Source: Actinomyces massiliensis 4401292 (GTDB lineage: Bacteria > Actinomycetota > Actinomycetes > Actinomycetales > Actinomycetaceae). Taken from it: a stretch of DNA of 52,168 nt. Positions 4,764 through 52,168 of the stretch are shown here, one piece after another. How positions within the stretch are numbered: position 1 is the stretch's first letter; each line of letters starts with the position of its first letter. The notes under the pieces are model-generated. The model was not told the DNA's origin. It saw nothing but the letters and a program-made list of their open reading frames with translations, and searched no databases. The position numbers and the translations under genes were made by a program. The stretch is from the NCBI RefSeq assembly GCF_000269805.1, contig NZ_JH711483.1:510156-562323 (forward strand), written 5' to 3'.

Positions 4764-4952
4764 GTTGTACATCGAGGGAATTGGGTCGAGCGGCGCAGGA
4801 GCACCACTGGCCGAGCTCCTTCGCGAACTCTTCGAGTCTAGCCGCCCGGCTGTGGACCCGCTCGTTGAGGCAGTGTCATTCCGGACACGGACGGACCTAA
4901 GGCTCATGTGCAGAGCGATGGTGGGGATTTTGATGCTTTGCTGACTGAACCT

Positions 4953-5064
4953 GGACCGATCTCGGGGCGGAGGTGGACCGATCTCGGGGCGGAGGTGGAC
5001 CGATCTCGGGGCGGAGGTGGACCGATCTCGGGGCGGAGGTGGACCGATCTCGGGGCGGGAAGGT
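4953..5064. repeat. 22-bp tandem repeat array, five units
   Basis: Five head-to-tail 22-bp units start at 4953, 4975, 4997, 5019 and 5041. The first four are identical (GGACCGATCTCGGGGC, then GGAGGT) and the last is slightly altered. Each unit contains the near-palindrome CCGA-TC-TCGG. The array lies between glgB and glgP, directly beside the glgB terminator. The same family recurs at 21238-21338 and, degenerate, at 13081-13144. Its function is unknown. Confidence 0.9.
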
Positions 5065-21217: not shown

Positions 21218-21237
21218 ATTCCTGCAAGCGCCGTTCC

Positions 21238-21338
21238 GGACCGATCTCGGCGCGGATTGCGACCGATCTCGAGCCGGAACTCGACCGATCTCGGCGCGGA
21301 GTGCGACCGATCTCGATGCGGAGGTGGACCGATCTCGG
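21238..21338. repeat. 22-bp tandem repeat array, second locus
   Basis: Units start at 21238, 21260, 21282, 21304 and 21326 (the last partial), each built on GACCGATCTCG followed by a variable base and GCGGA. They are less uniform than those at 4953-5064 but keep the exact 22-bp period and the CCGATCTCG core. The array fills the gap between convergent rnz and glgX. A small hairpin (CGGTGG-TTGCCG-CCACCG, 21336-21353) at its right end may act as terminator. Confidence 0.88.
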
Positions 21339-23940: not shown

Positions 23941-24699
23941 ATGAAAATCGTGGTCTGCATCAAGCACGTTCCCGACGTGCAGTCGGAGCGACGCATTGAG
24001 GATGCCCGCCTCGTCCGGGGCGAGGACGATGTCCTCAACGAGCTCGACGAGAACGCCGTCGAGGCCGCCGTCAGCCTCGTCGAAGAGCTCGACGGAGAGG
24101 TCGTGGCCCTGACGATGGGGCCGGAGGACGCCGAGGACGCCATCCGTCGCGCCCTGCAGATGGGGGCCGACTCCGGGGTCGTCGTCAGTGATGACGAGCT
24201 GGTCGGGGCGGACGTGGTGGCCACCGCCCGCGTGCTGGCCGCCGCCATCGAGCGCATCGGCGACGTGGATCTGGTGGTCACCGGCATGGCCTCCCTGGAC
24301 GCCCTGACCTCCATGCTGCCGGGAGCCCTGGCCGCGGCTCTGGGCATGCCTGCCCTGACCCTGGCGAGCTCTCTGGAGGCGAGCGCCGAGGGCGTCACCA
24401 TCACCCGTACGACCGGCACGCTGAGCGAGGTCCTGTCCGCCCCGCTGCCCGCACTCGTGTCCGTGACCGACCAGGCCAACGAGCCGCGCTACCCGAACTT
24501 CGCCGCCATGCGCGCCGCCAAGAAGAAGCCCGTGGACACCTGGGACCTGGAGGATCTGGGGCTGGAGCCGCGTCCCGCCGCTGTTCGCGTCATCGACGCC
24601 GAGCAGCGGCCCGCCCGCCAGGCCGGCACCATCCGCACCGACGCCGGGGAGGCCGGGCGCGAGCTCGCCGCCTGGCTCGTGGACTCCAAGCTCGTCTGA
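23941..24699 (+). CDS. etfB: Electron transfer flavoprotein beta subunit
   Basis: The 252-residue subunit starts MKIVVCIKHVPDVQ and contains the AMP-binding region (VVTGMASLDALTSMLPGALAAALGMP, about residues 119-144). It ends in the lysine-rich RYPNFAAMRAAKKKPVDTW segment typical of EtfB. With EtfA it forms the FAD-containing heterodimer that carries electrons from dehydrogenases to the quinone pool. ATG 23941 fits the family N-terminus, although the ribosome site is weak. etfA follows after 81 bp of unusual sequence. No acyl-CoA dehydrogenase or ETF-quinone oxidoreductase is seen in the window, so the electron donor and acceptor are unknown. Confidence 0.95.
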   Translation: MKIVVCIKHVPDVQSERRIEDARLVRGEDDVLNELDENAVEAAVSLVEELDGEVVALTMGPEDAEDAIRRALQMGADSGVVVSDDELVGADVVATARVLAAAIERIGDVDLVVTGMASLDALTSMLPGALAAALGMPALTLASSLEASAEGVTITRTTGTLSEVLSAPLPALVSVTDQANEPRYPNFAAMRAAKKKPVDTWDLEDLGLEPRPAAVRVIDAEQRPARQAGTIRTDAGEAGRELAAWLVDSKLV

Positions 24700-24714
24700 G
24701 CGCGCGTTATTAAG

Positions 24715-24732
24715 ACGCATATAACGCATATA
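24715..24732. repeat. Tandem ACGCATATA in an AT-rich patch between etfB and etfA
   Basis: Two adjacent 9-bp copies of ACGCATATA (24715-24723, 24724-24732), flanked on both sides by AAGACG (24712 and 24732), form a short AT-rich patch (24707-24740) in otherwise GC-rich DNA. It directly precedes the CRISPR-like hairpin. It could hold an internal promoter or an operator; nothing proves either. Confidence 0.4.
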
Positions 24733-24742
24733 AGACGTATGG

Positions 24743-24765
24743 CCCCGCGCGTGCGGGGATGATCC
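24743..24765 (+). promoter_or_regulatory. CRISPR-repeat-like hairpin just upstream of etfA
   Basis: The plus strand reads CCCCGCG, then CGT, then GCGGGGATGATCC. The CRISPR repeat at 51.6-52.1 kb, read on its transcribed strand, has CCCCGCG, then TAA, then GCGGGGATGATCC. The match is 20 of 23, and all three differences lie at the hairpin loop. The hairpin CCCCGC/GCGGGG is thus in the etfBA mRNA in the crRNA orientation. AAGGAG (24769-24774), the etfA ribosome site, follows directly. A second small palindrome, GGGGATGATCCCC (24755-24767), overlaps it. Confidence 0.6.
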
Positions 24766-24780
24766 CCCAAGGAGAAGATC

Positions 24781-25791
24781 ATGTCTGAGGCCCTCGGGAC
24801 TCTCGATGCCCCCGTCCTCGTACTCGCCGATCTCGACGGCACTCGTCCGACCGATCCCGCCCTCGAGCTGGTCGCCGCTGCCCGGACGCTGACCGGCGGC
24901 GGTGGCGATGTCGTGGCGCTGACCCTGGGCCCGGTCGAGGCGGAGGCGTCCGCCGCCCTGGCCGCTGCGGGCGCGAACCGTCTGCTGGTCGCCGACCTGG
25001 GCGGGGAGCGGGCTCAGGCCGCGGCTGGGGCCGACGCCGTCGTCGCTGCCGTGCACGAGGTCGCTCCCGGCGCGGTCCTGGTCAGCAGCGACTACCGCGG
25101 CAAGGAGACCGCCGGCCGCGCGGCCGTCCTCCTGGATTCCGCCTGCGTCAGCGACGTCGCCGATCTGCGCGTGGTGGATGGGGCGCTGCACGCTGATCGA
25201 CTCGTGCTGTCCGGCTCCTGGTCCACCACCATGTCGGCGAATGCCCATACCGTGCACCCGCCGATCCTCGCCGTGCGCCCCGGGTCCGTCGAGGTGCCCG
25301 ATGCGTCTGTCGACGATGCTGCGCCGCTGCCGGCCGTGGCGCTGGAGGTCGCGGTGAGCCGTGAGGCGGCCGCGGTCCGGCTCGTCTCGCGCGAGAGCAC
25401 CGCGGCGGCGGCCGGACCCGATCTGGCCGGGGCGCGCACCGTCGTCGTCGGCGGGCGCGGTGTGGACGGCGACTTCGACCTCGTGCGCTCCCTGGCCGAG
25501 CCGCTGGGCGCGGCCGTCGGCGCCACCCGTGTGGCCTGCGACGAGGAGTGGATCGAGCGGTCCGCCCAGATCGGCCAGACCGGCGTCTCGATCGCCCCGC
25601 GTCTTTACATCGGCCTGGGCGTATCCGGGGCGATTCACCACACCAGTGGTATTCAGGGCGCCGGTACCATTGTGGCGGTGTGCGACGACTCCGAGGCCCC
25701 GATCTTCGAGATGGCCGACTTCGGGGTCGTGGGGGATGTGACCGAGGTCGTGCCGCAGTTGGTCGCCGAACTCGATCGGCTGCGCGGCTGA
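24781..25791 (+). CDS. etfA: Electron transfer flavoprotein alpha subunit
   Basis: The 336-residue partner of EtfB carries the FAD-binding C-terminal domain. The signature QIGQTGVSIAPRLYIGLG, followed by VSGAIHHTSGIQGA, lies at about residues 261-293. The preceding GARTVVVGGRGVDGDFDLV segment is the usual start of that domain. The N-terminal half (about 1-190) is the alternating alpha/beta domain shared with EtfB. AAGGAG six bases before ATG 24781 is a strong ribosome site, and it lies next to the CRISPR-like hairpin, which could affect its access. The gene is followed by a 10-bp-stem hairpin. Confidence 0.95.
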   Translation: MSEALGTLDAPVLVLADLDGTRPTDPALELVAAARTLTGGGGDVVALTLGPVEAEASAALAAAGANRLLVADLGGERAQAAAGADAVVAAVHEVAPGAVLVSSDYRGKETAGRAAVLLDSACVSDVADLRVVDGALHADRLVLSGSWSTTMSANAHTVHPPILAVRPGSVEVPDASVDDAAPLPAVALEVAVSREAAAVRLVSRESTAAAAGPDLAGARTVVVGGRGVDGDFDLVRSLAEPLGAAVGATRVACDEEWIERSAQIGQTGVSIAPRLYIGLGVSGAIHHTSGIQGAGTIVAVCDDSEAPIFEMADFGVVGDVTEVVPQLVAELDRLRG

Positions 25792-50082: not shown

Positions 50083-51204
50083 TCAGGCCACGGTGGCCTG
50101 AGCAAGGACTCGGTCGCCGGAGTCGCCGCCGTAGACGACGACGGACTGGCCGGCCGCCAAGCCGCGTAGAGGTTGATGCAGCCGCGCCTGCAGCGTCCCG
50201 GTACCGGGGGTGACGACGACGTCGGCGGGCACGGGGCGGCCATGGGCGCGCACCTGCACGGTCACGTCCGGCCAGCCGACCTCGCCGTCGTCGAGCGGGG
50301 CGGGCTCGGCCAGGAGGATCAGGCCGTCGCCGTCAATGCTTCTGCGCTTGAGCAGTTCTTCGGGGCCGACGACGACTTCATTGGTGGCGGGTCGGGTCTC
50401 GATGACGTAGCGGGGCCGTCCGTCGGGGGCCGGGCGGGTCAGGCCCAGGCCCTTGCGCTGGCCGACTGTGAAGCCGAAGTAGCCGTCGTGGGTTCCGAGG
50501 ACGTCGCCGTCGGGGGAGACCAGGGCTCCTTCGTGAACGCCGAGACTGCGGGTGAGGAATCCGCGGGTGTCGCCGTCGGCGACGAAGCAGATGTCGTAGG
50601 AGTCGGGCTTGGAGGCCACCGGGAGGCCGCGGCGCTCGGCTTCGGCGCGTACATCCGCCTTGGAGGGGGCGTCGCCGAGAGGGAAGAGGGCCCGGGACAG
50701 GCCCTCGCGGCCGGAGACCGCCAGGACGTAGGACTGATCCTTGGCCGCGTCGGCCGCACGGCGCAGCGTCAGGCCGGTGGTCTCGCCGGGGCGGCTGGAG
50801 GCGGCGCCGCCGGTCAGGCGGGCGTAGTGGCCGGTGGCGACGGCGTCGAAGCCGAGGGCCAGGCCGCGCTCCAGGAGGGCGTCGAACTTGACCCGCTCGT
50901 TGCAGCGCACGCAGGGGTTGGGGGTGCGACCGGCGCGGTATTCGTCGAGGAAGTCGGCGACGACGCGCTCCTCGAACTGCTCGGACAAGTCCCACACGTA
51001 GAAGGGAATGCCGAGGATTTCGGCGGCCCAGCGGGCATCGGCGGAGTCCTCAATGGAGCAGCAGCCGCGCGAGCCCGAGCGTGTCTGGGCGCGATTGCGG
51101 GTGAGGGCCATGTGCACCCCGACGACGTCGTGTCCGGCGTCCACGGCGCGCGCAGCGGCGACGGCGGAGTCCACTCCGCCGGACAGTGCCGCGAGCACGC
51201 GCAT
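50083..51204 (-). CDS. mnmA: tRNA-specific 2-thiouridylase
   Basis: The 373-residue enzyme thiolates uridine 34 of tRNA-Lys, Glu and Gln. The PP-loop ATP motif SGGVDSAVA is at residues 8-16. The two catalytic cysteines are present, Cys98 in NPCVRCN and Cys206 in [10 protein letters not shown]. The C-terminal barrel ends in the normal family fashion. ATG 51204 has AGGAG upstream. Promoter-like TTGACC lies about 80 bp before the start on the minus strand, in a patch where GACTAC occurs twice (51228-51280 region). Confidence 0.96.
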
Positions 51205-51559: not shown

Positions 51560-52168
51560 AGATCATCCCCGCTACGCGGGGCTAACACGTCCGTCGTCTG
51601 CGGGTGTCCACACCGGAGCGGATCATCCCCGCTTACGCGGGGCTAACTCGGCGGCGATCAGGTCCACCAGCTCAGGCTTGGGATCATCCCCGCTTACGCG
51701 GGGTTAACGCCGTAGGCCATGGTTTTCTCCTCTGTCGGCCAGGATCATCCCCGCTTACGCGGGGTTAACCTCCGCCTCCGCGGCAGCGCGGGCAGCCCGC
51801 TCGGATCATCCCCGCTTACGCGGGGTTAACACTCCTGCGCCGGAGGAGCTTCATGAGGACGCAGGATCATCCCCGCTTACGCGGGGTTAACATCAAACAG
51901 TCCCAACCCAAGCAAAAGACACAGGGATCATCCCCGCTTACGCGGGGTTAACGTTCCAGTGCGGGTTGTGTGAAAAACGGATAGAGGATCATCCCCGCTT
52001 ACGCGGGGTTAACCTCGTGTGTGGCGTAAACGGGCCAGACTGCGTCGGATCATCCCCGCTTACGCGGGGTTAACGACGGGCCGGACTCAGTCCGGTGGGA
52101 AGCGGAGGGATCATCCCCGCTTACGCGGGGTTAACCCATTGTCTAGCACCTCCAGGGTCACCGAAGCC
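51560..52168 (-). CRISPR. Type I-E CRISPR array, trailer end, 10 repeats, continues past the window
   Basis: Ten repeats begin at 51560, 51620, 51681, 51742, 51803, 51864, 51925, 51986, 52047 and 52108, with 33-nt spacers and a 61-bp period. On the plus strand a repeat begins GGATCATCCCCGC and ends GCGGGGTTAAC (28 nt). On the minus strand it begins GTTAACCCCGC and ends GCGGGGATGATCC, the usual type I-E form, so transcription should run leftwards. The first repeat has one base deleted and two substitutions, and the second has one substitution, as expected at the trailer end. The window ends exactly at the end of the tenth spacer, so leader and cas genes should lie to the right. Spacers are all different. 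Confidence 0.95.

Follow-up and report, generated by a model that had tools for sequence, protein, structure and literature searches.

CRISPR repeats outside arrays are already known as RNA parts of toxin-antitoxin pairs and as phage RNA anti-CRISPRs. The CreA RNAs of CreTA pairs are described as derivatives of ectopic repeats (PMC9458426, PMC8501985). For the solitary repeat units called Racrs, Cas6f is reported to bind and process a solitary repeat in vivo, with the RNA upstream of the cut causing inhibition (PMC10651486). Cas proteins of some type I and type II systems have also been reported to target endogenous mRNAs (PMC8667911), and published work on related topics concerns CRISPR-Cas and OmpR in Salmonella Typhi (PMC8039139) and a small RNA between CRISPR and zinc transport (PMC8155600). 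In a literature search covering titles and the starts of abstracts, we recognised no report of Cas6 acting on host mRNA via repeat-like hairpins.

Here, we describe a repeat-like element between etfB and etfA of Actinomyces massiliensis 4401292, analyzed within a 52,168-nucleotide stretch of its genome (the window). We favor, with somewhat better than even confidence, the explanation that it is a solitary ectopic type I-E repeat, or the decayed remnant of one, stranded in crRNA sense in the etfB-etfA leader of two species. The features concerned are as follows, where R1 is the covariance model of type I-E repeats described below and the beta and alpha names of the two etf genes rest on gene order and on the label given in an earlier, sequence-only reading.

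23941 to 24699, plus strand: etfB, electron transfer flavoprotein beta subunit (PF01012, E 2.7e-37)
24743 to 24758, plus strand: CRISPR-repeat-like stem-loop CCCCGC-GCGT-GCGGGG, with a stem identical to that of the array repeats (R1 33.2 bits including flanks)
24759 to 24765, plus strand: ATGATCC, equal by sequence identity to the 3′ part of the repeat (the crRNA 5′ handle)
24769 to 24774, plus strand: Shine-Dalgarno sequence of etfA, AAGGAG, by direct reading
24781 to 25791, plus strand: etfA, electron transfer flavoprotein alpha subunit (PF00766, E 2.6e-27; PF01012, E 5.7e-19)
50083 to 51204, minus strand: mnmA (NF001138, E 7.7e-110)
51560 to 52135, minus strand: type I-E CRISPR array, crRNA sense on the minus strand, continuing past the window end towards cas2

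The element at 24743–24765 (the etf site) reads CCCCGCGCGTGCGGGGATGATCC and is sited between etfB and etfA. The crRNA-sense repeat of the array, GTTAACCCCGCGTAAGCGGGGATGATCC, runs on the minus strand from 51560 on, with a degenerate copy at 51560–51586. The two agree at 20 of 23 positions: stem and ATGATCC tail are exact, and the three mismatches all fall within the tetraloop. The 13-base 3′ part, GCGGGGATGATCC, is identical in both, and the 6-bp stem is intact. This likeness had been described in the sequence-only reading and is borne out here; the positions it gave are also correct, such that a Cas6e-type cut would fall after 24758, ahead of the etfA ribosome site. Among the 5 bases 5′ of the stem, 0–1 agree with the repeat, and over the full 28 bases the site agrees with the repeats compared at 21–23 positions.

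As sequence and structure, the etf site qualifies as a type I-E repeat (stem CCCCGC/GCGGGG, four-base loop, ATGATCC tail). It does not form a CRISPR array of at least two repeats with ~32-base spacers, as it is single, with no second repeat nearby, none at ~60 bases and no mini-array in the etfB-etfA gap. Rfam families gave no matches up to E 1 in 24500–25000. Immediately 5′ of the hairpin lies an AT-rich stretch (24706–24740) in which ACGCATATAA occurs twice (24715–24724 and 24724–24733); this stretch is absent in A. israelii, the second species considered below, and may contain an etfA promoter. Elsewhere in the window, two intergenic tandem arrays of 22-bp units (4952–5058 and 21228–21338) have the common core GACCGATCTCG.

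Elsewhere in positions 1–51500 of the window, ungapped matches to the 23-mer reached at most 16/23 on the plus strand and 17/23 on the minus strand. Scanning 67.4 Mb of simulated order-3 Markov sequence for the 23-mer and for its complement gave no place at 20/23 or above and two each at 19 or above. GCGGGGATGATCC occurs 13 times in the 3.37 Mb genome, 12 times in arrays and once at the etf site. We also built the covariance model R1 from 20 distinct type I-E array repeats of the genus and family, leaving the etf site out. These repeats were chosen by exact stem and tail, so the model holds no variation in either; they comprise 13 different tetraloops on one shared stem. On the genome, R1 placed the etf site at 33.2 bits with an E-value of 1.6e-5, such values being rough by the tool's own statement, and the best further non-array site at 19.2 bits (E 0.2). 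Twelve array repeats scored 42.2–45.8 bits, and one degenerate array repeat scored 27.7, below the etf site. Across 49 genomes of the genus, in a run whose stricter filters lose weak matches, 12 had weak matches only (best E from 0.0037 to 0.76) and 6 had none at E ≤ 1; therefore, the null of R1 behaves. Genome G047 was kept out of the 12, as its 77 R1 matches (best E 0.0012) resemble an array of a variant repeat.

Both loops also occur in genuine repeats. Among the array repeats of another Actinomyces genome, G033, one copy has GCGT, the loop of the etf site, and two have GCAT, the loop found at the A. israelii site; the 23-mer of the etf site is identical to one of these repeats. At this locus (L252), a single type I-E array holds ACGC, GTGT, GCAC, GCAT and GCGT among the tetraloops counted, with stem and tail constant. 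Of 394 genomes searched across the class, 5 gave the degenerate 23-mer CCCCGCGCRTGCGGGGATGAYCS, this one included; in the four others, the five loci inspected (one match each) were all in arrays or beside degenerate repeats. The likeness of the etf site to a CRISPR repeat is real and above chance. The sequence-only reading had allowed for a coincidence of a GC-rich hairpin, and the R1 E-value and the zero simulated places at 20/23 point to a repeat-like element instead.

We weighed these results against an ordinary intercistronic mRNA hairpin without CRISPR ancestry, reached by convergence on a GC stem. All-GC 6-bp stems with four-base loops number 8 in positions 1–51500 of the window, and CCCCGC-N4-GCGGGG palindromes outside arrays number 3 in the genome, the etf site being included in both counts. 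The other two palindromes seem, by eye, to lie inside reading frames (one mraY-like, one ABC-ATPase-like) and are without the tail; given three palindromes read either way, our arithmetic puts the chance of the exact ATGATCC tail at ~1e-4 to 1e-3. Conserved hairpins also turn up in other gaps when the two species are compared, and the AAGATCATG context occurs also in relatives without the hairpin, as an ordinary hairpin would allow. The same reading could draw on the predicted fold, where the AUGAUC part of the tail pairs with GAUCAU at the etfA start. However, both carriers' loops are attested among array repeats, and convergence would have to overcome the genome-wide E of 1.6e-5 and the empty simulation on both strands. 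We judge an ordinary hairpin to be quite improbable.

In the predicted fold of the source-genome leader, the hairpin forms and the AUGAUC/GAUCAU pairing lies over the etfA start. Compared with shuffled sequences, leader stability is not clearly higher (z 0.07 for 71 bases and −1.39 for 106 bases). The 70-base leader of A. israelii has a different predicted minimum-energy fold, without the hairpin, and by inspection one base of the AUGAUC/GAUCAU pairing is altered there. We claim no start-codon switch from these predicted folds.

We found etfA in all 49 genomes of the genus, preceded in every one by the end of etfB. All 49 etfB-etfA gaps were inspected by eye, that of G003 up to a few bases before the start codon, and the hairpin is present in two: the source genome and A. 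israelii DSM 43320 (G013). Genus-wide conservation of the hairpin was rejected on this count. I-E genes and repeats were detected in four relatives (G009, G031, G029 and G008) that have no hairpin; among them are the genomes that come next in EtfA similarity, G009 (A. gerencseriae) and G031 (oral taxon 448). A tree of EtfA sequences, covering 22 of the 49 genomes, did not separate the two carriers and G009 clearly, and is compatible with one gain or later loss for the two carriers.

The A. israelii copy, TGAAACCCCGCGCATGCGGGGATGACCG, keeps the stem at 12/12, has another loop and retains 5/7 of the tail. Three of the 5 bases 5′ of its stem agree with its own repeat (AAA kept), such that the outer parts retained differ between the two copies: the tail at 7/7 in the source genome, the AAA before the stem in A. 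israelii. The source-genome copy matches its own repeat at 21/28 and the A. israelii repeat at 22/28, and the A. israelii copy matches its own repeat at 22/28 and the source-genome repeat at 21/28. As own-repeat matches are not clearly better than cross-matches, neither loop nor flanks track the array of the same genome; the stem, being identical between both arrays, is uninformative for covariation. Covariation of the hairpin with each genome's repeat, the check proposed in the sequence-only reading, thus fails at 21–22/28 both ways in two genomes, and in neither does the hairpin follow the resident repeat as in a co-evolving, Cas6e-controlled mRNA. Decay of the handle in A. israelii means that the two copies have no crRNA-like 5′ end in common; what they share is the stem and the G|A junction at the predicted cut. 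The leader between the genes measures 81 bases in the source genome and 62 in A. israelii. Five other gaps between the two species show aligned-base identities of 0.70–0.79, a figure flattered by gapped alignment and including one poor alignment of the five; an unchanged 12-base stem is therefore mildly unexpected (~3% by our arithmetic).

The genes cas3, cse1, cse2, cas7, cas5, cas6e, cas1 and cas2 adjoin the array in the source genome, and A. israelii has the same full I-E set. Cas6e matches TIGR01907 with E-values of 1.6e-16 in the source genome and 7.5e-15 in A. israelii, the best stretch being the C-terminal part. In a full-length alignment of the two carriers and four relatives (six species), Cas6e is alike throughout, with a common glycine-rich G[IL]GRSKAYGCGL near the end. 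Judged by sequence alone, both carriers have a resident, intact Cas6e. The predicted cut between 24758 and 24759 is modeled on the Cas6e action described in PMC5965380. Since the loop varies among genuine repeats, even in one array (G033), the etf site is a plausible Cas6e substrate. Known Cas6e cutting and the processing of a solitary repeat by Cas6f likewise make the etfBA message, which we infer to be co-transcribed, a plausible one. Cas6e probably cleaves the etf site after 24758.

The site could be functional, with Cas6e cutting or capping the etfBA mRNA and so setting etfA output or etfB stability, or with the mRNA titrating Cas6e. A 12/12 stem and a G|A junction, the features expected to count for Cas6e, kept in leaders of 81 and 62 bases would suit this explanation, as would a full-length Cas6e in both carriers and the Cas6f precedent, in which a solitary repeat is reportedly processed in vivo and inhibition comes from the RNA 5′ of the cut (PMC10651486). 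However, the hairpin is confined to 2 of 49 genomes and is absent in relatives with I-E genes, the copies do not track their own genome's repeat, the A. israelii handle has decayed and the predicted A. israelii fold lacks the hairpin. Stem retention at a chance of ~3% argues only weakly for constraint. We regard a functional site as unlikely. A captured repeat that places Cas6e and the etfBA message under mutual control, with Cas6e cutting and capping the mRNA and strongly expressed etfBA soaking up Cas6e, is in our estimate distinctly unlikely. Control of etfBA, or of Cas6e through the mRNA, may have been selected for; our comparisons, which for covariation cover two genomes, do not support it. 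The tie between electron-transfer metabolism and CRISPR activity suggested in the sequence-only reading sits poorly with the 2/49 distribution, the I-E-bearing relatives without the hairpin and the lack of repeat tracking; a relic repeat, which that reading also named, is the better fit.

A solitary repeat stranded in the leader would probably have come as a stray copy out of the CRISPR locus; in several relatives that locus lies a few kb from etfBA. The order etfBA, mnmA, array and cas2 onward is found in G029, G008 and G031, with 3–6 kb between etfA and the array, and mnmA lies between etfBA and the array in the source genome and the four relatives examined. This distance is not small everywhere, being ~0.1 Mb in G033, ~0.15 Mb in G045, ~0.4 Mb in G048 and ~1.5 Mb in G032 for the arrays listed. 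Furthermore, the etf copy is inverted relative to the array, and no donor event is visible. The distance from etfA to mnmA is ~24 kb in the source genome and ~19 kb in A. israelii, filled with other genes.

Repeats outside cas loci do occur in the genus, as there are stray cores in A. israelii C49 and C67 and in G018 C76. In C49 (locus L165, ~4857–4990) and G018 C76 (locus L166, ~4675), stray 23-base cores have other hairpins around them at a spacing of 60–61 bases. No cas genes were found near either in the 10 kb examined, and both loci look like relic CRISPR arrays. The etf site does not sit among such spaced hairpins, which counts against the origin proposed here, as do the lack of a second repeat, the mismatched bases 5′ of its stem and the hairpin-free predicted fold in A. 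israelii. A. israelii C67 (L172, 3928–3955) holds a lone repeat-like intergenic hairpin (R1 31.4 bits) with no cas gene in 8 kb. In G025 (L170, 12624–12651), a lone copy of that genome's array repeat, exact in stem and tail, lies ~8.5 kb from a three-repeat array. In A. israelii C11 (L164, 4148–4176), a HAD-IIB hydrolase gene carries another repeat-like hairpin, CCCCGCGCGAGCGGGGACGACCC, in its leader; comparison of the 130 bases upstream of the start in 30 of the 49 genus genomes showed it in A. israelii alone and not in the other 29. We also considered, and rejected, the idea that repeat hairpins ahead of ribosome sites form a class: a pattern with GGAG within 30 bases matched in 34 of 200 family genomes, and, among the matches listed, these sites appear to be array repeats with spacers, the etf site excepted.

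If the etf site is a captured repeat of this kind, its loop and flanks would have drifted after capture, with the GC stem retained. Resident Cas6e, when present, would be expected to bind the stem-loop of the etfBA transcript and cut it after 24758, then remain bound to the 3′ end of the upstream etfB RNA, leaving an etfA message that keeps its ribosome site on a 22-base leader. In our view, any effect would be a mild by-product, with two messages separated and the etfB end protected, and not a selected switch.

Comparison with CreTA raises one further explanation, in which the RNA 3′ of the repeat would guide Cascade to a target. Published CreA RNAs have one or two degenerate ectopic repeats as their source (PMC9458426, PMC8501985), and the etf site could be such a source. 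However, the etfA ribosome site and start make up the 33 bases 3′ of the tail, and scanning the window and cas region with these bases gave, beyond the site itself, 3 seed-type matches (15–17/33), as against 10 for the reversed control. A CreA pseudo-spacer is expected to match a promoter in part, beside a PAM, and the regions scanned held no good target of this sort. The handle, moreover, is lost in A. israelii. A CreA-like guide is very improbable. In general, the etf site resembles CreTA ectopic repeats in being repeat-like, degenerate and outside an array, with a cognate Cas6 in the genome, and one-repeat forms are described among them (PMC9458426, PMC8501985). Unlike CreTA, it lies in a protein-coding leader, with no second repeat and no guide-target pair in the window or cas region. 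The stray cores of A. israelii C49 and G018 C76 share the stem and ATGATCC tail of the etf site and, like it, lie outside a cas locus, but they belong to what resemble relic arrays, while the etf site is alone.

If a core metabolic operon has a lone repeat in its leader and the cell has its own Cas6e, this would show that stray repeats can expose ordinary genes to the crRNA-processing enzyme. The etf site offers a simple natural substrate for asking how frequently Cas6 cuts host messages, and even if only a relic, it illustrates the seeding of such sites. Like the Racrs and solitary repeat units, it is a single intergenic repeat mimic of the resident CRISPR subtype (PMC10651486). Racrs are described on phages, prophages and plasmids (PMC10651486), whereas the etf site, though lone and intergenic, lies within the etfB-etfA operon, a chromosomal operon found genus-wide. 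Were mutual control between Cas6e and the etfBA message true, the site would be a host-encoded, metabolism-linked counterpart of phage RNA anti-CRISPRs.
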